Made by a program: the position numbers and the translations under genes. Shown one piece after another: positions 12,695 to 41,044 of a stretch of DNA of 64,000 bases; within the stretch, counting starts at the first letter, position 1; each line of letters begins with the position of its first letter. Where the stretch lies: positions 344,013 through 408,012 of the forward strand of contig NZ_KQ130456.1 in NCBI RefSeq assembly GCF_001046635.1. Reading direction: 5' to 3'. Source of the stretch: Novosphingobium barchaimii LL02 (GTDB lineage: Bacteria; Pseudomonadota; Alphaproteobacteria; Sphingomonadales; Sphingomonadaceae). Below the pieces are notes generated by a model that saw only the letters and a program-made list of their open reading frames with translations, did not search any database and had not been told where the DNA came from.

Positions 12695-13275
12695 CGTCCC
12701 ATCACTCCCAAGGTACGCAGCGCCGATTGCACCATGAGCAGCGGCATGCCAAGGATGGTGAAGTAATCTCCATCGATGCGTTCGAACAATTGCACGCCGC
12801 GCGCTTCGATGCGGAATACCCCGACGCAGGCAGCGACTTCGGGCCATTCGGCATCGAGGTAGCTCTCGATGAAATCATCCGAAAGCCGCGCAACGTGAAG
12901 CTGGGCCAAAGCCGTGTCGGCCCAAAGGACTTCGCCGTCTCGCACCAGAGCGGCGGCGCTGTGCAGTTCCATCACCTTACCCGAGAAAAAGCGCAAATGC
13001 ACGGCGGCATCGGCGCGGCTTGCCGGCTTGTCGAACCGCCGGCCTTCCACCGAAACGAGCGAGTCGCTGCCCAGCACGATTTCGCCTGATGTTTCACGTG
13101 AAACAACATCGGCCTTCGCGCAGGCAAGGGCCAGCGCCACTTGCGCGGGGGGCGCATCGGCCATCGTGGCCTCGAGCGCGCGCTCGTCGATGTGGGCAGG
13201 CTGCGCACGGAACGCGATCCCGGCGGCTTCGAGCATGGCGCGCCGAGAGGCGCTCTGGGAGGCGAGAACGATCAT
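12691..13275 (-). CDS. maf: Maf nucleotide pyrophosphatase
   Basis: This 194-residue Maf/YceF-type nucleoside triphosphate pyrophosphatase probably hydrolyses non-canonical nucleotides. Motifs are LASQSASRRAMLEAAG at the N-terminus and VLGSDSLV and FDKPAS in the core, with the expected spacing. A perfect parS palindrome lies inside the gene, where it encodes part of VVSRETSG. It lies between the PPDK regulator and aroE, with a 23-bp gap upstream and a four-base overlap downstream. Confidence 0.92.
   Translation of the reverse strand: MIVLASQSASRRAMLEAAGIAFRAQPAHIDERALEATMADAPPAQVALALACAKADVVSRETSGEIVLGSDSLVSVEGRRFDKPASRADAAVHLRFFSGKVMELHSAAALVRDGEVLWADTALAQLHVARLSDDFIESYLDAEWPEVAACVGVFRIEARGVQLFERIDGDYFTILGMPLLMVQSALRTLGVMGR
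13090..13105. other. parS site (perfect), in maf
   Basis: TGTTTCACGTGAAACA, the exact 16-bp parS palindrome bound by ParB. It lies within maf, about 11 kb from parAB and 1.1 kb from the proposed origin. Confidence 0.93.
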
Positions 13276-13298: not shown

Positions 13299-14144
13299 TC
13301 AGATCGGTTTGGGGCCGACTTGTCCGGTTTCACCGGCGGCCTTGCGCTCGTTGTAGAGGTTGATGACCGCCGCCGCGGTTTCCTCGATCGACCGGCGGGT
13401 GACGTCGATCACCGGCCACGAGTTGTCGGCGAACATGCGCCGGGCATATTTGAGTTCGCTGTCGACGGCTTCGTTGTCGACATAGTCGGTGTCGGGCGAC
13501 TGACTGAGCGACAACAAGCGGTTGCGCCTGATCTGAATCAGCCGGTCGGGCGCGGTGGTCAGGCCAACCACTAGCGGGCGGCGCAAATCAAATAGCGAAG
13601 GCGGAGGCGGGCTTTCCACCACGATCGGGATATTGGCGACCTTGTAGCCGCGATTGGCGAGATAAATCGAAGTCGGTGTCTTGCTGGTACGTGAAACGCC
13701 TGCCAGCAGGATGTCCGCCTCCTCCCATTCCTCCCACAGAATGCCGTCGTCGTGTGCGATCGTGAACTGGATCGCATCGACGCGCGCGAAGTAGGCATCG
13801 TCGAGCCGGTGCTGACGGCCGGGGCGACCCTTGGCTTCCTGGCCGAGCAGGGCTTCGAGCGCATCGGTTACGCCATCGAGCACGGCGATGGCGGGCAGGC
13901 CCAGCGACTGGCAGCGTTCCTCCAATCGGCCGCGCGTTTCCTCATTCACCAAGGTGAAGAAGACGAGGCCCGGATTGGCGGCGATCTCGCCCATGATCCG
14001 GTCGAGGTGTTGCTGAGAGCGGACCATCGGCCAGAAATGGCGCAAAACGTCGGAATCGTCGAACTGCGCAAGCGCAGCCTTGGCGATCATCTCCAGCGTT
14101 TCGCCGGTGGAATCGGACAGTAGATGTAGGTGAAATCGCGCCAT
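13299..14144 (-). CDS. ppsR: PPDK/PEP synthase regulatory kinase-phosphorylase
   Basis: This 281-residue DUF299 protein is a bifunctional serine/threonine kinase and phosphorylase that switches pyruvate phosphate dikinase or PEP synthase on and off. It opens with FHLHLLSDSTGETLEM and carries the P-loop GVSRTSKTPTSIYLANRG in the second half. The open frame begins at 14279, but the conserved N-terminus is at the ATG at 14144. It is the first gene of the leftward run leaving the putative origin; the Caulobacter origin has an orthologue in the same position, as I recall. Confidence 0.93.
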   Translation of the reverse strand: MARFHLHLLSDSTGETLEMIAKAALAQFDDSDVLRHFWPMVRSQQHLDRIMGEIAANPGLVFFTLVNEETRGRLEERCQSLGLPAIAVLDGVTDALEALLGQEAKGRPGRQHRLDDAYFARVDAIQFTIAHDDGILWEEWEEADILLAGVSRTSKTPTSIYLANRGYKVANIPIVVESPPPPSLFDLRRPLVVGLTTAPDRLIQIRRNRLLSLSQSPDTDYVDNEAVDSELKYARRMFADNSWPVIDVTRRSIEETAAAVINLYNERKAAGETGQVGPKPI

Positions 14145-14196
14145 GGTCGGCTTTCGCAGGCCCTTTTTGCGGATGCTGTCGAAGAGCACCGCGCCT

Positions 14197-14439
14197 TGTG
14201 GATATGTCCCGGCATAAACCACGGGAGCAATCCGGTGACAACTCGCCGCCACCAATTCCTGCCCGCTAACGGGATTCAACGAGTCAGGATGTGGACAGAC
14301 CGAACGATTCCATCAACACCCTGTGGAGAAGGCGAACAAGCTTTCGTTGACTCAACTGAGTCCCAGAGTCGCATCAAGCGCTAGGGCCTGTTCATCGGGG
14401 TACAAATCGGGCAATGCGCAGCCGTCCCCGATATCCACA
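14197..14439. promoter_or_regulatory. DnaA-box-like sites
   Basis: TGTGGATAT (14197-14205) and ATATCCACA (14431-14439) are the same 9-mer in opposite orientation, one mismatch from TTATCCACA. TGTGGAGAA (14322-14330) has one mismatch and TGTGGACAG (14290-14298) has two. They flank the GANTC cluster. Confidence 0.55.
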
Positions 14440-14460
14440 GGACCAACTACTCCCATCAAC

Positions 14461-14490
14461 CTTATATAAATTCTCTATATTTTTTTGATT
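14461..14490. promoter_or_regulatory. AT-rich unwinding element and/or hemE promoter
   Basis: Twenty-six of the 30 bases are A or T (for example TTATATAAATTC and TATATTTTTTTG) in an otherwise strongly GC-rich sequence. This fits a DNA unwinding element; it also overlaps the region expected for the hemE promoter. Confidence 0.55.
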
Positions 14491-14503
14491 GGACGAAAAC
14501 GCG

Positions 14504-15553
14504 ATGCCCGGCCTGCTTCTCGACACCCTGCGCAGAACAGTTTCCAGCAGTGATTCAAACGGCGATTCAGCCGGCCGCCCGATCTGGCTGATGCGCCAGG
14601 CTGGGCGCTATCTTCCCGAGTACCGCGAACTGCGCGCGGAAAAGGGCGGATTTCTCGCGCTGGTCTACGATACCGACGCTGCGGCCGAGATTACGATGCA
14701 GCCGATTCACCGTTTCGGTTTTGACGGCGCAATCCTGTTCTCCGACATCCTGATCGTGCCTTACGCGATGGGGCAGGACCTTCAATTCCTTGTCGGCGAA
14801 GGCCCCAGGCTCAGTCCCAAACTGGTCGATCACGCGCTGGAAAGCCTTGTCGCAGTGCCCGAACGGCTGACTCCCATCTACGAAACCGTCCGGAAGGTCC
14901 GCGCGCAGCTGGCGGCCGACAAGACGATGCTGGGATTCGCCGGCTCGCCCTGGACAGTCGCGACGTACATGGTCGCAGGCGAGGGCAGCCGCGATCAGCA
15001 TGACACCCGCGCCATGGCCTACCGCGATCCCGGCGCATTTCAGGCAATCATCGATGCCGTGACCGAGGTTACAATCGAATACTTGTGCGGTCAGATTCAG
15101 GCGGGGGCGGAAGCGGTGCAGCTTTTCGATTCGTGGGCCGGCAGTCTTTCCCCCTCCCAGTTCGAGCGCTGGGTCATCGCACCCAACGCGAAGATCGCCG
15201 CCGCGGTGAAGGCGCGCCATCCCGAGACTGTGATCATCGGCTTTCCAAAGGGTGCAGGCGAAAAACTGCCTGCCTATGCCCGCGAGACGGGCGTGGATGC
15301 AGTCGGCATCGATGAGACGATCGACCCCCTCTGGGCTATGCGCGAGCTTCCGGAAGGGCTACCGGTGCAGGGCAATCTTGATCCGCTTCTCCTGCTATCA
15401 GGCGGAGCGGAACTGGAGAGCGGAGCGCTTGCGGTACTTGAGGCTTTCGCGGACCGTCCCCACGTCTTCAACCTCGGCCACGGTATCGGCCAGTTCACGC
15501 CGATCGCCCATGTCGAGCAATTGCTCGCCACCGTGCGCGGATGGCGTGGCTGA
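14504..15553 (+). CDS. hemE: Uroporphyrinogen decarboxylase
   Basis: This 349-residue enzyme converts uroporphyrinogen III to coproporphyrinogen III in haem synthesis. Family motifs are PIWLMRQAGRYLPEYRE at the N-terminus, FSDILIVPYAMG, AGSPWTVATYMVAG and VQLFDSWAGSLSP. The ATG at 14504 is chosen; a TTG at 14489 in the AT-rich element would add five residues. Residues 10-24 (RTVSSSDSNGDSAGR) are a Ser-rich insertion whose DNA carries two further GANTC sites. hemJ follows, and hemB lies 22 kb away. Confidence 0.95.
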   Translation: MPGLLLDTLRRTVSSSDSNGDSAGRPIWLMRQAGRYLPEYRELRAEKGGFLALVYDTDAAAEITMQPIHRFGFDGAILFSDILIVPYAMGQDLQFLVGEGPRLSPKLVDHALESLVAVPERLTPIYETVRKVRAQLAADKTMLGFAGSPWTVATYMVAGEGSRDQHDTRAMAYRDPGAFQAIIDAVTEVTIEYLCGQIQAGAEAVQLFDSWAGSLSPSQFERWVIAPNAKIAAAVKARHPETVIIGFPKGAGEKLPAYARETGVDAVGIDETIDPLWAMRELPEGLPVQGNLDPLLLLSGGAELESGALAVLEAFADRPHVFNLGHGIGQFTPIAHVEQLLATVRGWRG

Positions 15554-18151: not shown

Positions 18152-19120
18152 TCAGGGCAACAACACCGTAGACCCGGTAGTGGCCCGCCCCTCCAACGCC
18201 CGGTGCGCTTCAGCCGCATCCGACAAGGCAAACGTCTGTCCGATCTTCGGATCGAGCACGCCCGAGGCAATTCGGTCGAACAGCTTCTTCGCATTCGTCG
18301 CCAGCATTTCCGGCGTGGCGATGTAATCCGCCAGCGTAGGCCGCGTTGCGTAAAGCGAGCCTCCGCGCATCAGGTCCAGCACTGTTATCGGCGGCACAGC
18401 GCCCGAAGCATTGCCGTAGCTCACCATGACCCCACGCTTTGCCAGGCATGCCACCGAGGCGTCCCATGACGCTGCGCCAACGCCGTCAAAGGCGACGTGG
18501 CACATGGCTCCGCCGGTGATTTCCCGCACTGTTGCGGGCAGATCTTCGAACGAGCAGTACAGCGAATGTTCGCCGGGAACCTGCGCGGCCTTTTCCGGCG
18601 AGCCGGAGTGAGCGATCACCGTCACGCCCTTGTCGAGCAGCCACGGTACCAGCAACGAACCGACGCCGCCTGCGGCCGAGTGGACCAGCGCTACGTCGCC
18701 TGCCTTCGCCGGGAAGGTATCTTCGGCAAGGTAGCAGGCGGTCAGACCCTTGAGCATCACGGCAGCGGCTATTTCGGCTGCGATGCCTTCTGGGATGCGC
18801 ATGGCCTTGGCGGCGGGGATCACGCGGTGGGTGGCATAGGCGCCGCCGTTCTGCGTGGTGCCGACGCGGTCTCCTATGGCGAACGTGTCCACGCCTTCGC
18901 CGAGAGCGACGATCCGCCCCACGCTCTCCGAGCCGAGGCTGATCGGCAGCGCGTCGGGGTACAGGCCCTTGCGATAGTAGGTGTCGATGAAGTTGAGACC
19001 GACGGCCTCAGTTTCGATCACGACTTCGCCGGCACCGGGTGAGGGCACCGGGAAATCGTCGCGTTCGATTACTTCCGGCCCGCCGTGAGCGCGCACGATC
19101 ATGCGGTATCCGCTGGTCAT
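18152..19120 (-). CDS. qor: NADPH:quinone oxidoreductase, zinc-independent MDR family
   Basis: This 322-residue medium-chain reductase resembles QOR/zeta-crystallin, which reduces quinones with NADPH. It begins MIVRAHGGPEVIERDDFPVP, has GLNFIDTYYRKGLYP, and the nucleotide-binding loop VHSAAGGVGSLLVPWL. Structural-zinc cysteines are absent, as usual for the group. The ATG at 19120 has GAAGGA 9 bp upstream; the frame starts five codons earlier inside the neighbour. It follows the dienelactone hydrolase gene by 11 bp. Confidence 0.9.
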   Translation of the reverse strand: MTSGYRMIVRAHGGPEVIERDDFPVPSPGAGEVVIETEAVGLNFIDTYYRKGLYPDALPISLGSESVGRIVALGEGVDTFAIGDRVGTTQNGGAYATHRVIPAAKAMRIPEGIAAEIAAAVMLKGLTACYLAEDTFPAKAGDVALVHSAAGGVGSLLVPWLLDKGVTVIAHSGSPEKAAQVPGEHSLYCSFEDLPATVREITGGAMCHVAFDGVGAASWDASVACLAKRGVMVSYGNASGAVPPITVLDLMRGGSLYATRPTLADYIATPEMLATNAKKLFDRIASGVLDPKIGQTFALSDAAEAHRALEGRATTGSTVLLP

Positions 19121-19131
19121 CGTGCGGTCCT

Positions 19132-19830
19132 TCAACCGATGTTCTTGGCGAAGAATGCCTCGGTGCGTTCATCTGCCAGGGCGGCGCCGGCTTCGTCGCG
19201 GCGGGCACCGATCTCGGCAGCGAAGCCGTGGTCGAGGCCTTCGTAATCATGCAAGGTGACGCGCGGATGATCGTCCAGACCTTCATGCATGGCCTTCTGC
19301 GCTGCAGCGTCGACGAAGTGGTCGGCGGTGGGAATGTGCAGCATGAGGGGGCGGGAAATCGCATGCTTCTCGCCTAGCATCTGGTCGATCATCACCCCGT
19401 AATAGCCGACCGAGGCGTCGATGTCAGTGCGCGCGGCGGCCATGTAAGCGACCTTGCCGCCCATGCAGAAGCCGACGAAACCGACCTTCGCGACCGATTC
19501 CTCACGGCGGATCCAGTGGATCACTGCCTCGATATCGCGGATACCCAGATCGAAATCGTGGGCCATCATGTGATCCAGTGCCTGCTGCATCTCCGCTTCG
19601 ATATAGGGGCTGAGTTCGATGCCCGGCTTCTGGCGCCAGAAGCTGTCCGGAGCGACCGCGAGGTAGCCCTTGGCGGCCCAGTCGTCAGCTTTTTTGCGGA
19701 TGCCTGCATCGACGCCGAACACTTCCTGCTGGACAATGATTGCGCCGCGCGGCGTGCCTTCGGGGCGGGCCACGTAGGCCGGGATCATGGCGTTGCCGTC
19801 GAGCGTGGCGATTTCGGTGTTGGTGGTCAT
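19132..19830 (-). CDS. Dienelactone hydrolase family protein
   Basis: This 232-residue alpha/beta hydrolase has the DLH-type nucleophile Cys in VGFVGFCMGGKVAYM, Asp/His candidates in PTADHFVDAA and YEGLDHGFAAE, and the QQEVFGVDAGIRKKADDWA N-terminal signature. True DLH opens dienelactones in chlorocatechol breakdown; no aromatic degradation genes are nearby, so substrate is unassigned. The start at 19830 has GGAGAG 6 bp upstream. It is probably cotranscribed with the downstream oxidoreductase. Confidence 0.88.
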   Translation of the reverse strand: MTTNTEIATLDGNAMIPAYVARPEGTPRGAIIVQQEVFGVDAGIRKKADDWAAKGYLAVAPDSFWRQKPGIELSPYIEAEMQQALDHMMAHDFDLGIRDIEAVIHWIRREESVAKVGFVGFCMGGKVAYMAAARTDIDASVGYYGVMIDQMLGEKHAISRPLMLHIPTADHFVDAAAQKAMHEGLDDHPRVTLHDYEGLDHGFAAEIGARRDEAGAALADERTEAFFAKNIG

Positions 19831-19932
19831 CGGACTCTCCATGTTTCTCGTGGCGGGAGTTAGGCAGTTGCAATGGACTTTGCCAAGCGCATGTGTCAGC
19901 TATGCTGCGAAAACTAGCGGGAGGAGGCCGGG

Positions 19933-20245: not shown

Positions 20246-21523
20246 ATGACTGATACGATCTTTGCGCTCTCCAGCGGCTCGCCGCCTGCTGCCATCGCCG
20301 TTGTCCGGTTGAGCGGACCCCGTGCGGGCGCGTGTCTATCCGCCCTTGCAGGGAGCCTGCCGGAGCCGCGACGCGCCAGTTACCGGACCTTGCGTGTTTC
20401 ACGTGAAACAGTGCTCGATCGGGCACTGGTCTTGTGGTTTCCCGGGCCGCGCACCGCAACCGGTGAGGATCTGGCAGAATTGCATTTGCACGGGGGCAGG
20501 GCGGTGATCGCGGCCGTGGAATCGGCGCTTTGCGATTTACCTGGAATGCGCCGCGCGGAACCGGGGGAGTTTACCCGCCGTGCTTTCGCCAATGGCCAGA
20601 TCGACCTTGCCGAAGCGGAAGGCCTTGCCGATCTTCTTTCCGCCGAGACAGAGCTTCAGCGGCGTAGCGCGATCGCGATGGCGAGCGGTGCCTTTTCCAA
20701 GCAGGTGGAGGACTGGCGCGACCGGGTTCTAACATCATCAGCGGCGGTAGAGGCCGTGCTCGATTTCGGGGACGAAGATGATGTGTCCGATCTCCCGCCC
20801 GAGTTCGGGCAGCGGATCGCAGCGCTTGCCGATGAGCTGTCTGCCTGGCTGTCTCGGCCCCGCGCCGAAGCGCTGCGCGAAGGTTACCGGGTGGTGCTGG
20901 CGGGTCCACCCAATGCGGGCAAGAGCACCCTGTTCAACGCATTGGTCGAAGACGAGGCGGCAATCACGGCGCCGCTTGCGGGCACCACTCGCGATGTCTT
21001 GACGCGGGCTGTGGCGATCGAAGGCGTGCCTTTCCTCTTTGCCGACACAGCAGGGCTTCGCGATGAGACGACCGACGTCATCGAGGCTATCGGTATAGAC
21101 CGCGCTCGTGCTGCACTGGACCGGGCTGACCTTGTCCTCTGGCTCGGCGCCGAGGGAGATGGCCCGGCCGGTGTTTGGGAAATTGCCGCTCAGGTCGACA
21201 GGGGCGATGGGGCTGATAAGGCTGCGCCCCGTCATGCCGTGTCAGCGTTGACGGGTGAGGGGATCGACGAATTGCGCCGCGATCTGGTTGAGACGGCGCG
21301 CCGCGCGATGCCGCGTCCCGGTGATGTCGCGCTCAATACCAGGCAGCATGGCCTTCTGGCGGATGCGGAGATTTCCTTACGAGCCGGATTGGCAGAGCGT
21401 GATCCTCTGCTGGTGGCGGAGCGCCTGCGACGGGTGAGGGTCTCGTTCGATGGTCTGGTCGGCCGTGCGACGACGGAAGATATGCTCGATACCCTGTTTG
21501 GACGCTTCTGCATCGGAAAATAA
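20246..21523 (+). CDS. mnmE: tRNA uridine-5-carboxymethylaminomethyl GTPase MnmE
   Basis: This 425-residue GTPase works with MnmG to modify the wobble uridine of certain tRNAs. It has the N-terminal tetrahydrofolate-binding domain, a P-loop GPPNAGKSTLFNAL from about residue 220, DTAGLRDETTDVIEAIG as G3, and the invariant C-terminal FGRFCIGK. A perfect parS lies inside codons for RVSRETV. mnmG follows 69 bp after the stop. Confidence 0.96.
   Translation: MTDTIFALSSGSPPAAIAVVRLSGPRAGACLSALAGSLPEPRRASYRTLRVSRETVLDRALVLWFPGPRTATGEDLAELHLHGGRAVIAAVESALCDLPGMRRAEPGEFTRRAFANGQIDLAEAEGLADLLSAETELQRRSAIAMASGAFSKQVEDWRDRVLTSSAAVEAVLDFGDEDDVSDLPPEFGQRIAALADELSAWLSRPRAEALREGYRVVLAGPPNAGKSTLFNALVEDEAAITAPLAGTTRDVLTRAVAIEGVPFLFADTAGLRDETTDVIEAIGIDRARAALDRADLVLWLGAEGDGPAGVWEIAAQVDRGDGADKAAPRHAVSALTGEGIDELRRDLVETARRAMPRPGDVALNTRQHGLLADAEISLRAGLAERDPLLVAERLRRVRVSFDGLVGRATTEDMLDTLFGRFCIGK
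20395..20410. other. parS site (perfect), in mnmE
   Basis: TGTTTCACGTGAAACA, exact 16-bp parS, inside mnmE codons for VSRET, 3.7 kb upstream of parA. Confidence 0.95.
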
Positions 21524-21528
21524 GCCGA

Positions 21529-21544
21529 TGTTTCACGTGAAACA
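21529..21544. other. parS site (perfect), between mnmE and mnmG
   Basis: TGTTTCACGTGAAACA, exact 16-bp parS in the mnmE-mnmG intergenic space, 5 bp beyond the mnmE stop. Confidence 0.96.
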
Positions 21545-23440: not shown

Positions 23441-24078
23441 TCACCAATGAAGACGAAGCACGCGACTGGCTGCGTGGGCTTCCGGAATGCGACGATGCGG
23501 CGATGGCGCGTTTGGGCCTGCTCGTGGAGATGCTGGCCCAAGAGAACCAGCGCCAGAACCTGGTTTCTGCCGCGAGTCTCGATCAGGTATGGAAGCGGCA
23601 CATTGTGGACAGCGCCCAGCTACTTCCGCATGTTCCACGTGAAACAACGCTGCCCTGGATGGACCTCGGCACCGGTGCGGGCTTCCCCGGTCTGGTCATC
23701 GCGGCATTGCGACCGGAATGTGAAGTGATCATGGTCGAATCGCGCAATCGAAGGATCGAATGGCTCGATTGCGCTCGAATCGAGATGGGCCTTGAGCGCG
23801 CGCGAATTGTGGGCAGCCGTCTCGAACTTGTCGAATCGCAGCCGTGCAGCGTCATCTCCGCGCGTGCTTTTGCGCCTTTGGACAAATTGCTCGCGTTATC
23901 TTCGCGATTTTCCACAAGTGACACGATTTGGCTGTTGCCCAAAGGGCGGTCGGCCAGCCAAGAATTGGACGACCTTCGCAACTGGCGGCATGTGTTCCAC
24001 GTGGAACAGTCCTTAACGGATCCGCAGGCAGGCATCATTGTCGGCAAACTTGCCGGCGGGAAGGGTAAGACCGCGTGA
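23437..24078 (+). CDS. rsmG: 16S rRNA (guanine527-N7)-methyltransferase
   Basis: This 213-residue SAM-dependent methyltransferase makes m7G527 in 16S rRNA. Motifs are [36 protein letters not shown] (SAM motif I) and [14 protein letters not shown]. It overlaps mnmG (ATGA) and parA (GTGA). Two parS-type sites lie within it, coding for HVPRETT and HVFHVEQ. Confidence 0.96.
23631..23646. other. parS-type site, one mismatch, in rsmG
   Basis: TGTTCCACGTGAAACA differs from the perfect parS at one base (T to C at position 5). It lies in rsmG. Confidence 0.88.
23993..24008. other. parS-type site, symmetrical variant, in rsmG
   Basis: TGTTCCACGTGGAACA is a perfect palindrome that carries the C/G change symmetrically in both arms. 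It lies 67 bp upstream of parA. Confidence 0.85.
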
Positions 24079-24851
24079 TCCGCATTGCCATTGCCAACCA
24101 GAAGGGCGGCGTCGGAAAGACGACGACCGCGATAAATGTCGCTACCGCATTCGCCGCCACTGGTTGGAAGACGCTGCTGATCGACATCGATCCGCAAGGC
24201 AATGCATCGACTGGTATCGGTGTGTCTGCCTCTGAACGAGGCGCCTCCTGCTATGACGTTCTGGTGGACCGGGTGCCGGTATCGCAGTGTGTGATGCCCA
24301 CCAAGATACCCGGCCTCGATTTGCTGCCTGCGACCGTCGACCTGTCCGGCGCCGAGATCGAACTGGTCAATGCAGAGGACCGAGCCCACCGCCTTCAACG
24401 CACGTTGGGGCCGGAGCTGGGATATGATGTCTGCCTTATCGACTGCCCCCCTTCGCTGGGCCTGCTGACGCTCAACGCACTCACCGCGGCCGATACCCTC
24501 TTGGTGCCGCTGCAGTGTGAGTTCTTCGCGCTGGAAGGGCTGAGCCAGTTGCTCCAGACGGTGGAGCGGGTTCAGCAGCGATTCAACCCGGACCTCGGCA
24601 TCATCGGCATCGCCCTTACCATGTTCGACCGCCGCAACCGCCTGACCGAACAGGTTTCCGAAGACGTGCGCTCGGTGCTGGGCAAGCTGGTCTTCGAAAC
24701 GACGATCCCGCGCAACGTGCGCCTGTCGGAAGCGCCCAGCCACGGCGTTCCGGCGCTCATCTATGACCACGCCTGCGCCGGCAGCCGCGCCTACATGGCG
24801 CTCGCCCGCGAACTGATTACCCGACTGCCCGAAAAGAGGATTGCGGCATGA
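24075..24851 (+). CDS. parA: Chromosome partitioning ATPase ParA
   Basis: This 258-residue ParA/Soj ATPase moves ParB-parS complexes along the nucleoid. The deviant Walker A NQKGGVGKTTTAIN spans residues 8-21 with signature Lys10; CLIDCPPSLGLLTLNAL is Walker A'/B; LGLIGI-type helices follow. There is no N-terminal HTH, so it is the chromosomal type. It starts with GTG overlapping the rsmG stop. It is followed by parB with an ATGA overlap. Confidence 0.97.
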   Translation: MIRIAIANQKGGVGKTTTAINVATAFAATGWKTLLIDIDPQGNASTGIGVSASERGASCYDVLVDRVPVSQCVMPTKIPGLDLLPATVDLSGAEIELVNAEDRAHRLQRTLGPELGYDVCLIDCPPSLGLLTLNALTAADTLLVPLQCEFFALEGLSQLLQTVERVQQRFNPDLGIIGIALTMFDRRNRLTEQVSEDVRSVLGKLVFETTIPRNVRLSEAPSHGVPALIYDHACAGSRAYMALARELITRLPEKRIAA

Positions 24852-25834
24852 ACGACGACCCCATCATCCGCTTCAGCCTGCCGGGCAATGCCGCGGCCGC
24901 CAGTGCCGCAGGCGGCGCCAGCAAGCAGAAGCCCAAGGGCCTCGGCCGGGGCCTGGGCGCTCTGCTGGGCGAGACTCGGCGCGAGGAACCGGTGGCCGGT
25001 AATGTCGAGGGCGAGGGCAGGGCGCCGCTACGGGTTGGCGGACTGGCTGTCCTCTCGATCGCCGACATCACGCCCGATCCTCAGCAGCCGCGCCGCATCT
25101 TCGATGAAGCCGCGCTGGAGGAACTGGCCGCCTCGATCGCGCAGCGCGGAGTGATCCAACCCATCATCGTGCGCCCGCGTGATAATGGCCGCTACCAGCT
25201 CGTCGCCGGTGAGCGTCGTTGGCGCGCCGCGCAGAAGGCCCAGCTGCACGAAATCCCCGCGCTGGTACGCGAACTGACCGACCGGGAAGTCATGGCGCTG
25301 GCCCTGATCGAAAACCTCCAGCGCGAAGACCTCAACCCGATCGAGGAGGCGCGCGCCTACAACCGCCTTTCCGAACTGGAAGGAATGACCCAGGCCGAAA
25401 TCGCCCGCATGGTCGACAAGAGCCGCAGTCACGTCGCCAACTTCCAGCGCTTGCTCGCACTCCCGGAAGGCGTGATCACGCTGGTCGAAAAGAACCAGCT
25501 TTCCATGGGCCATGCCCGTGCACTGATCGGCTGCGATGACGCCGAGGATATCGCCGAAGCTGCCGTCACCAAGCAGATGTCGGTTCGCGAGATCGAGAAG
25601 CTGGTGCGTAAAAAGCAGCGCGGCGATACTGCCCCGCGCCGTGCGCGCGCCGCCCGCAATGCCACGGCGGATGCGGATATCATGGCGGTGCAGAACCACC
25701 TTGAGGAGTTCCTCGGCCTGCCGGTGAAGATCAGCGCCGATGTAGACCCGGCTTCGGGCACGGTGACGATCCGCTATTCAACCCTGGATCAGCTCGATCT
25801 GGTTTGCCAGCGGCTGACCGGCGGCGCCATCTGA
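24848..25834 (+). CDS. parB: Chromosome partitioning protein ParB
   Basis: This 328-residue CTP-dependent clamp binds parS. The N-terminal KGLGRGLGALLGE is the ParA-contact motif seen in ParB proteins. The CTPase domain includes VAGERRWRAAQKAQLHEIPA and MALALIENLQREDLNPIEEA; a helix-turn-helix follows (MTQAEIARMVDKSRSHVANF), then the dimerisation domain (LGLPVKISADVDPASGTVTI). Residues 12-25 are Ala/Gly-rich. The start overlaps parA by four bases. Its targets are the parS sites listed here. Confidence 0.97.
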   Translation: MNDDPIIRFSLPGNAAAASAAGGASKQKPKGLGRGLGALLGETRREEPVAGNVEGEGRAPLRVGGLAVLSIADITPDPQQPRRIFDEAALEELAASIAQRGVIQPIIVRPRDNGRYQLVAGERRWRAAQKAQLHEIPALVRELTDREVMALALIENLQREDLNPIEEARAYNRLSELEGMTQAEIARMVDKSRSHVANFQRLLALPEGVITLVEKNQLSMGHARALIGCDDAEDIAEAAVTKQMSVREIEKLVRKKQRGDTAPRRARAARNATADADIMAVQNHLEEFLGLPVKISADVDPASGTVTIRYSTLDQLDLVCQRLTGGAI

Positions 25835-31064: not shown

Positions 31065-31080
31065 TGTTTCACGTGAAACG
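31065..31080. other. parS-type site, one mismatch, beyond carD
   Basis: TGTTTCACGTGAAACG matches parS except the last base. It lies 4 bp from the carD stop and 5 bp from the hairpin, 5.2 kb beyond parB. Confidence 0.85.
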
Positions 31081-37067: not shown

Positions 37068-38694
<1,627 letters not shown>

Positions 38695-38782
38695 TCTGCG
38701 TTCCGCGTGCGGGTTAGGCTGTTCTTGGGCATGTTCGGCAAGTAGCCACCCTGCAAATCGGCATCAGGGGCTGAATTCGAAA

Positions 38783-41044
38783 ATGACTGAGACCGTTTCA
38801 GAATCCGCCGGCCCGGCGCCGATCGGCAAAACCGGCGGTGGACAGCGCGGGCTGTTCGTAGCCACGATTCTGGTCGGCAGCTTCCTGCTGTTCCTTGTAC
38901 AGCCGATGGTCGCGCGCATGGCGCTGCCTCGTCTGGGCGGGGCGCCTAACGTATGGAACAGCGCAATGCTGGTCTATCAGGCGCTGCTGCTGGCCGGTTA
39001 CGCCTATGCGCACCTGCTGGGCCGCTTGCCGCTGCACAAGCAGGTGATGATCCACGTCGCACTATTGGTCCTTGCCGGGCTAACCTTGCCGGTAGGGCTG
39101 GTCTCTCTGGCGCCGATCGCCGGCCTTTCCGAAGCGCTTTGGGTCCCGCTGCTGTTGGGGCTTAGCATAGGGCCGGTCTTCTTCGTGGTTTCCGCTCAGG
39201 CCCCGCTAATGCAGCGCTGGTTCGCCGCCGATCCGCAGTCAGGCGCGCCTTGGGCGCTTTATGCGGCATCGAACCTCGGCAGTTTCACGGGGCTGCTCGC
39301 CTATCCGCTCCTTGCCGAACCGCTGCTGACCCTGCGCCAGCAAAGCCTGGCGTGGACCGCCGGTTTCGGCGTGTTGATCGCGCTCGTCGTGGCCGCTGCG
39401 CTGGCCCGGCGGCGCCTTCCCGAAGCAGCTGCCACCGCCGCTGCCGACACAGGCGCAGAGGCGCCGATCGGTTGGCGCACCGTCACGCTCTGGCTGCTGC
39501 TGTCCGCGGTTCCGTCCGGCCTCATGCTGTCGACGACAACTCATCTTACCACCGACATTTTCGCGATGCCGCTGCTCTGGGTGATTCCGCTCGGCCTCTA
39601 TCTTCTCAGCTTCGTTGTCGCCTTCTCGGACCGGCGCGGCGCGGTGACGTCCATCAGCTGCGTGACACCAGTAGTCGTGCTTTTTGCCGGCGGCTACGCG
39701 ATGATGTCGAACAGCTCGGGCACGCTGTGGATGGTGGGAGGCACCTGCCTGCTTCTGTTCTGCGTGGCTGCAGCGCTGCACGGCCGCTTGTACGACCTGC
39801 GGCCAGGCACTGGCCATCTCACCCGTTTCTACTTGACGATGTCGGCGGGCGGCGCCCTTGGCGGGCTGTTCACCGCATTGCTGGCGCCTCTGGTATTCGA
39901 CTGGGCCTGGGAGCATCCTCTGCTCGTCCTAGCTGCTGCCGCTCTCATTCCGCTACGGCCGCTGCTGGGCTGGCGTGAACGGGATGGCATCGAGCCGGGC
40001 GTGGCCCGCGCCGTGCTCATCGTGCTGCTCACCCTGGCGCTGCTCCTTGCGTGGTGGATCGGCAGCAACCTCCTCGAGCCGGGCGGCGCGCTTGCTGCGA
40101 TGCTGCTTTCCGTTTTCCTGATGGGCATCGGGATCATGGTCATGGCGTGGCGCGGAGCCTTCGTGGCTATCGTGCTGATGGCGATGCTGGGGCAAGGCGG
40201 CATCTGGACGATCCGCGCGACCGTCGACGGTGAACGTACCCGCAGTTATTTCGGTATCTATACCGTCCGCGATCACGCCGAGGACAAGATGCGGACATTG
40301 GCTCACGGCACGACCCTGCACGGCGAACAGTCGCTGGATCCTGCCCGCTCGCACGAGGCTTTGACCTATTACGGACCGACATCGGGAGTGGGGCTGGCGC
40401 TCAGTGCAGTGCCGGCCATCGAAGGTCCGCATGCGCGGGTGGGCGTTGTGGGACTGGGCACCGGCTCTCTCGCCTGCCGCGCCCGCCCGGGGCAGACCTG
40501 GACGTTTTTCGAGATCGACCCGGTAATGCTGCAATTCTCCACCAGCGGCCGTTTCACCTTCCTGCACGATTGTACGCCGGACGCACGGGTGATTATCGGA
40601 GATGCGCGGCTCGAACTGGGAGAGCTTTCGCCGGGCGCATTCGACGTTCTGGTGATCGACGCGTTTTCCTCTGATGCGATCCCGATGCACCTGCTCACGC
40701 GGGAAGCGATGCAGGTCTACCTGCGGTCGCTGGCCCCGCGCGGACTTTTGCTGCTGCACATCTCCAACCGCTATATCGATCTGGCGCCTGTGATCGGCAC
40801 CACGGCGCAGGACAGCGGACTTTCCGCGCTGTCCCGGCTGGATATCCCCAAGGATGGTATGGGCTATACCCCATCGCGCTGGATCGCCCTGTCGCGTGAT
40901 GCGGGCCCGCTCAATGCCCTTGCGCGGGCGCACCCCGATACTCCATGGAAGAGGCTCGAAGAACGGGCGGCGGAGCCTTGGACGGACGACCATGCGTCCA
41001 TCCTCTCGCATGTCCGCTGGGAAAATCTGACGGGAACCCCATGA
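38783..41044 (+). CDS. Fused membrane transporter/spermidine synthase-like protein
   Basis: This 753-residue protein has two parts. About residues 20-500 contain many hydrophobic helices (FVATILVGSFLLFLVQPMVA, LLLGLSIGPVFFVVSAQAPL and others). The C-terminal third is a spermidine-synthase-like methyltransferase fold, with GVVGLGTGSLACRARPGQTW, FFEIDPVMLQFS, IIGDARLELGELSPGAFDVL and IDAFSSDAIPMHLLTREAM. The fusion is an established architecture, but substrate and transport role are unknown. No SAM decarboxylase gene is nearby. The frame begins 53 codons earlier; MTETVSESAG is the natural start. Confidence 0.85.
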   Translation: MTETVSESAGPAPIGKTGGGQRGLFVATILVGSFLLFLVQPMVARMALPRLGGAPNVWNSAMLVYQALLLAGYAYAHLLGRLPLHKQVMIHVALLVLAGLTLPVGLVSLAPIAGLSEALWVPLLLGLSIGPVFFVVSAQAPLMQRWFAADPQSGAPWALYAASNLGSFTGLLAYPLLAEPLLTLRQQSLAWTAGFGVLIALVVAAALARRRLPEAAATAAADTGAEAPIGWRTVTLWLLLSAVPSGLMLSTTTHLTTDIFAMPLLWVIPLGLYLLSFVVAFSDRRGAVTSISCVTPVVVLFAGGYAMMSNSSGTLWMVGGTCLLLFCVAAALHGRLYDLRPGTGHLTRFYLTMSAGGALGGLFTALLAPLVFDWAWEHPLLVLAAAALIPLRPLLGWRERDGIEPGVARAVLIVLLTLALLLAWWIGSNLLEPGGALAAMLLSVFLMGIGIMVMAWRGAFVAIVLMAMLGQGGIWTIRATVDGERTRSYFGIYTVRDHAEDKMRTLAHGTTLHGEQSLDPARSHEALTYYGPTSGVGLALSAVPAIEGPHARVGVVGLGTGSLACRARPGQTWTFFEIDPVMLQFSTSGRFTFLHDCTPDARVIIGDARLELGELSPGAFDVLVIDAFSSDAIPMHLLTREAMQVYLRSLAPRGLLLLHISNRYIDLAPVIGTTAQDSGLSALSRLDIPKDGMGYTPSRWIALSRDAGPLNALARAHPDTPWKRLEERAAEPWTDDHASILSHVRWENLTGTP

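Follow-up and report, generated by a model that had tools for sequence, protein, structure and literature searches.

Where does replication of the chromosome of Novosphingobium barchaimii LL02 start? This question is raised by a short interval between two divergent genes in the window, that is, the whole stretch of 64,000 nucleotides analysed here, and an earlier note had proposed this interval as the likely chromosome origin beside hemE. We concluded that a Novosphingobium-like sphingomonad very probably has its chromosomal oriC here, and that this oriC is of the known alphaproteobacterial type; it is not a new kind of origin and its location is largely the expected one. The earlier proposal is supported by what was observed directly: the location and its synteny, the cluster of DnaA boxes with its conservation in near relatives, the AT-rich minimum, the parS sites and the skew switch in some relatives. 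With this, the likely origin of the window's chromosome is placed.

Gene neighbourhood of the interval

The interval (14145..14503, 359 bp, 53.5% GC) extends from just past the start codon of ppsR (complement 14142-14144) to just before the ATG of hemE at 14504. Its left boundary gene, ppsR (13299..14144, minus strand), encodes a kinase/pyrophosphorylase of the DUF299 or COG1806 family (PF03618, NF003742), and its right boundary gene, hemE (14504..15553, plus strand), encodes uroporphyrinogen decarboxylase (PF01208, TIGR01464). On the left side the leftward genes are raiA/hpf, dnaQ, coaE, aroE, maf and ppsR; on the right side the rightward genes are hemE, a hemJ-like gene, an ORF without a name, rho, mnmE, mnmG, rsmG, parA and parB, where the labels mnmE and mnmG are presumed from the sequences of these genes. 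This gene map agrees with the earlier description of an interval lying where a leftward run from ppsR to dnaQ diverges from a mostly rightward run from hemE to parB. Two leftward ORFs at 18152-19842 break the latter run.

A parAB-parS system lies close to the interval, as had also been stated. Three exact parS sites were found at 13090..13105 (inside maf and about 1 kb from the interval), 20395..20410 and 21529..21544, together with two one-mismatch sites (23631-23646 and 31065-31080) and three weaker matches, giving a total of 8 sites where 0.05 were expected. The exact and one-mismatch sites span about 18 kb and flank the origin on both sides. The parAB genes, which like parS are looked for near an origin, occupy 24075-25834 on the plus strand: parB lies at 24848-25834, and the parA-like gene at 24075-24851 was named from sub-cut-off ParA-family matches and from its position before parB.

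Relatives were collected by a HemE search of genome contigs, from which the best 80 of 573 loci were used; the nearest of them are mostly Novosphingobium. The gene ppsR divergently precedes hemE in 70 of these best 80 of 573 loci, across Alphaproteobacteria. Among the 70 loci maf adjoins ppsR in 62, and within the fetched stretch dnaQ is present in 59, rho in 64 and parA in 29, counts that include many loci ending at contig edges. The 10 loci having no ppsR match (L027, L046, L048, L052, L059, L061, L072, L073, L078 and L079), in four of which (L059, L061, L072 and L078) the hemE match begins at most 151 bases from a contig edge, were excluded from the motif scans of relatives. A "sphingomonad set" was chosen from the loci by title or HemE identity; it consists of L001-L031 and L045, including L023, whose title gives Alphaproteobacteria only, and 31 of its 32 members carry ppsR. 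On two contigs of the genomes used, G105 C1 and G104 C2, the hemE match is less than 2 kb from the contig start (positions 1616 and 340, respectively), as though these contigs had been cut at the origin.

The hemE contig of the closest relative amounts to 3.45 Mb of 6.6 Mb, which might be taken to mean that the window comes from a secondary replicon with a copied chromosome-type origin. We consider this extremely improbable, since dnaQ, coaE, aroE, rho and parAB stand in the order seen in relatives and a HemE match is present in 145 of the 149 genomes of the genus, one per genome.

DnaA boxes, GANTC sites and AT-rich element

Four DnaA-box-like sites are present in the interval. Three of them differ from TTATCCACA by one mismatch, namely the left box (ATATCCACA, 14197-14205, minus strand), the middle box (TTCTCCACA, 14322-14330, minus strand) and the right box (ATATCCACA, 14431-14439, plus strand); a weaker box (CTGTCCACA, 14290-14298, minus strand) differs by two. 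The core TCCACA is intact in all four. The 64-kb window contains 5 one-mismatch 9-mers in total, 3 of which are inside the interval. When the interval was subjected to 2,000 dinucleotide shuffles, three one-mismatch boxes and four TCCACA cores were each reached in none (0/2000), and so the DnaA-box cluster is above chance. Six GANTC sites, starting at 14273, 14281, 14306, 14349, 14358 and 14366 (14273..14370), were equalled in 7 of the shuffles. Placements of 359 bp across the window matched the box count in 0.2% and the GANTC count in 0.5% of cases. The interval also contains, at 14455-14494, the 40-mer with the lowest GC content (22.5%) of the 64-kb window, and the right box points into this AT-rich element. 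The site scan and the shuffles thus confirmed the DnaA-box-like sites, the AT-rich element and the GANTC cluster noted earlier. From its composition, the AT-rich element is a candidate for the unwinding element.

The imperfection of the boxes had been regarded as the weak point of the proposal. It is true that none of the four is an exact copy of TTATCCACA, but this objection is weaker than feared, because the strong DnaA box of Caulobacter is itself one base away from the E. coli box (PMC4285127) and because the cores of the outer boxes are retained in 41 of 41 aligned intergenic sequences. As described in the same paper, DnaA sites of the Caulobacter origin are strong in a few cases and weak in several, the weak W-boxes having the consensus TCCCCA (PMC4285127). 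Box by box, the window has ATATCCACA and TTCTCCACA where the published Caulobacter box is TGATCCACA.

The orientation of the right box towards the AT-rich element resembles the basal unwinding system, which is composed of a DnaA box, a spacer and DnaA-trios. Taking as criterion at least three NAN trios not more than 16 bp from a DnaA box, beyond chance, we found minimal three-trio runs adjoining the left and middle boxes and none at the right box. Over the 41 intergenic sequences there was no enrichment of trios at boxes: runs occur at 28 of 200 boxes, as compared with 13.9% of all positions. Scans of the window with Rfam (gathering threshold) and for tRNAs gave no match.

Conservation of the interval in relatives

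The alignment of 41 sequences comprises the window, 20 of the 31 ppsR-bearing loci of the sphingomonad set, and 20 further HemE-matched loci, the last being near matches and large contigs picked by hand from 145 HemE matches. The remaining 11 loci of the set, which are more distant, were kept outside the alignment and inspected separately. The elements conserved in the 41 intergenic sequences are the core of the left box, the 13-bp element ATAAACCACGGGA, a GACAA, the GANTC at 14366, a GGCA, the core of the right box and the AT-rich end. The left core, TGTGGA, lies within the first 110 bp in 41 of 41 sequences, the right core, TCCACA, is invariant in the alignment, and the GANTC at 14366 is kept as GANTC in all sequences of both the 21- and the 41-sequence alignments. 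At the column of the middle box, a number of relatives have the W-box-like core TCCCCA. Of the 11 more distant loci, 7 have TGTGGA near ppsR and 2 have TCCACA near hemE; set against 41 of 41 in the nearer sequences, this indicates that the architecture drifts with distance. A second block, ACAAATCGGGCA (14402-14413), lies between the middle and right boxes and its conservation is moderate.

If the interval works as other origins of this type do, DnaA would bind the conserved outer boxes at 14197 (facing leftward) and 14431 (facing rightward) and the weaker inner sites, and would assemble across the interval, opening the AT-rich DNA at 14455-14494 next to hemE. The helicase would then be loaded at the opened element for two divergent forks, an order of events which we infer. 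ParB bound to the nearby parS sites would help to segregate the copied origins, and the GANTC sites may have a role in timing.

GC skew and the position of dnaA

Inside the 64 kb alone the GC skew is shallow and its cumulative minimum is broad, at about 8-19 kb; it was dropped as evidence, being too shallow and too broad. A strong local AT skew (-0.20 to -0.24) was observed at 38001-41000, away from the origin.

The earlier note had suggested a skew analysis as a check, with the dnaA locus as an alternative site for the switch. Skew was sampled in six relatives with large contigs, chosen by ourselves, using 20 stretches of 20 kb each and a two-level model. In the closest relative (G077, HemE 96% identical) the switch was placed at 10-182 kb with hemE at 126 kb, and 1 of 300 permutations fitted as well; an alternative switch at 354-526 kb nearly equals this best fit. 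For G139 the switch is at 2562-2794 kb and hemE at 2782 kb (0/300 permutations as good), and for G013 the respective positions are 3325-3520 kb and 3477 kb (7/300). The switch of G053, at 2474-2650 kb, leaves hemE (2414 kb) about 60 kb outside (0/300). No significant two-level fit was obtained for G116 and G102 (42/300 and 217/300 permutations as good), whose best fits are 1734 and 810 kb away from hemE, respectively. In three of the six relatives the switch brackets hemE and in one it misses by about 60 kb; the other two gave no significant fit. The contigs G116 C1 (5.70 Mb) and G102 C1 (3.74 Mb) show no significant two-replichore fit, yet both carry hemE and the 13-bp element at the usual position; this anomaly possibly reflects rearrangement, replicon fusion or assembly error.

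As to dnaA, its distance from the fitted midpoint is 424-1324 kb in the four informative genomes, which speaks against the dnaA locus as the site of the skew switch. With contigs treated as circles, a distance of 144-1242 kb separates dnaA from hemE in all 12 genomes measured. In a symmetric model, hemE ranked 21st, 1st and 301st among 400 positions in G077, G139 and G116, respectively, as against 61st, 241st and 61st for dnaA.

These results bear on whether the interval is nothing but the divergent promoter region of ppsR and hemE, the true origin being elsewhere, at dnaA or at another locus. Divergent genes do require promoters, the left side of the interval shows promoter-like spacing, the AT-rich DNA adjoining hemE could serve as the hemE promoter, and the skew of two of the six relatives has no significant fit. 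A promoter region, however, does not account for a box cluster that exceeds shuffles, for outer boxes that are retained, for the parS cluster, or for a skew switch that falls at or near hemE, away from dnaA, in four of the six relatives; we therefore regard this explanation as very unlikely and the interval as the probable origin.

Comparison with known origins

The earlier note pointed out that the Caulobacter origin also lies beside hemE. This is correct, and the likeness is stronger than was claimed, for the partner gene on the other side, COG1806/DUF299, is common to both: the mapped origin of Caulobacter crescentus (Cori) is described as lying between hemE and CC0001/COG1806 and as containing, besides DnaA boxes, about 40 bp of AT-rich sequence (PMC1914354). 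The interval in the window is likewise bounded by hemE and COG1806/DUF299 and has DnaA boxes and, at 14455, its lowest-GC 40-mer as an AT-rich element, whose unwinding is predicted; for Caulobacter, these shared features are taken from the papers. At the level of genes, the likeness extends to the origin of Rickettsia prowazekii, which is reported to be bounded by the same hemE/COG1806 pair (PMC1914354).

Closer to Novosphingobium, the oriC of Sphingopyxis granuli TFA and of most Sphingomonadaceae in DoriC is predicted beside hemE (DoriC/Ori-Finder; PMC4741004). That of S. granuli TFA is described as having a conserved gene organisation with intergenic DnaA boxes and a DUE (PMC4741004), and so, compared by description, it matches the present interval in another genus. 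A survey of Sphingomonadales states that dnaA is not conserved close to the origin and suggests parAB as the anchor, a picture which the interval fits as far as that survey describes it (PMC8116508). A literature search for a Sphingomonas replication origin with marker frequency found no paper.

The main difference from Cori concerns CtrA. No CtrA site, strict or relaxed, was found in the window, and none, strict or half-relaxed, in 31 relatives of the sphingomonad set. Full sites, TTAA-N7-TTAA, occur upstream of hemE in 4 of 39 other relatives (L032, L033, L035 and L040). We take CtrA sites as a feature of Caulobacter regulation and not of the origin's place; the Caulobacter address is kept in the window without recognisable CtrA sites. 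Since such sites are not recognisable at these sphingomonad origins, timing may be set differently there. For Sphingomonas melonis the survey reports that growth was not impaired, a statement taken here to concern loss of CtrA (PMC8116508). The exact general IHF consensus WATCAANNNNTTR is absent from the window and from 29 relatives in a scan for exact matches.

A conserved 13-bp element behind the left DnaA box

No other 13-bp stretch of the interval is as well conserved as ATAAACCACGGGA (14214..14226, plus strand), which has a mean conservation of 0.98 over the 41 sequences and an exact copy in 34 of them. An exact single copy was found in 10 of 13 chosen genomes, none of which contained the reversed control word (0/13), and in 109 of 149 genomes from the genus of G001, where the control word appeared in 4. 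Nearly all of the genus copies (107 of 109) precede the HemE match by 268-358 bp and share its strand; one of the other two is on a different contig and the other is in a genome without a HemE match. Among 149 genomes from the family of G004, 53 carry the element once each and 8 carry the control word. As the exact element is absent from 40 of 149 genomes of the genus and from 96 of 149 of the family, it is lineage-bound.

What the element is conserved for can be read in more than one way. There is about an even chance, judging from sequence patterns, that it serves as a second, weak DnaA box which forms a tandem with the left one and bears an extension specific to the lineage. When it is counted as a box ending in ATAA, 37 of 41 sequences place its start 11 or 12 bp, or one helical turn, behind that of the left box; in four more distant loci (L022, L028, L029 and L031) this position is taken by a fusion of TGGGGATAA with ATAAATCAAGG, and L019 and L024 carry TGTGGACAA-CA-TGGGCRTAA. 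This spacing and the fusion in the four loci suggest a weak second box. Against this, the candidate box is three or four mismatches off TGTGGATAA in 38 of 41 sequences, and a DnaA box leaves the conserved ACCACGGGA unexplained.

The conservation might instead be due chiefly to a leftward ppsR promoter whose -10 region and spacer the element would provide, which we consider possible but rather doubtful. A candidate promoter towards ppsR (TTGTCA, 17 nt, TTTATG) can be drawn at 14213..14241 on the minus strand; the pattern ATAAA-N18-[GC]ACAA has equal spacing in 39 of 41 intergenic sequences, and transcription would start close to the left DnaA box. Against a promoter, the spacer half is conserved nearly like the rest, the -10 fits the consensus at 3 of 6 positions, a strict sigma-70 scan of 14000-14700 found no promoter, and inspection by eye revealed no comparable -35 in L022, L028, L029 and L031. 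The same region contains one terminator-like site (14149-14162), against 0.7 expected.

Both features might also be combined. Somewhat speculatively, and with the odds against it, ATAAACCACGGGA together with the TTGTC-like hexamer at fixed distance would be an origin control site in this group of sphingomonads, a leftward promoter laid over a weak tandem DnaA box. Were this so, transcription towards ppsR and DnaA loading would interfere with or prime each other, and the element would fill the regulatory place that CtrA sites have in Caulobacter.

When the text of open papers was searched for the letters of ATAAACCACGGGA, the single match came from an unrelated paper on a virus matrix protein and was taken as chance. 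The element is possibly unreported so far; it could be visible in the supplement with the Sphingopyxis box alignment (PMC4741004). For near relatives, draft genomes included, ATAAACCACGGGA provides a practical tag with which to locate the origin.
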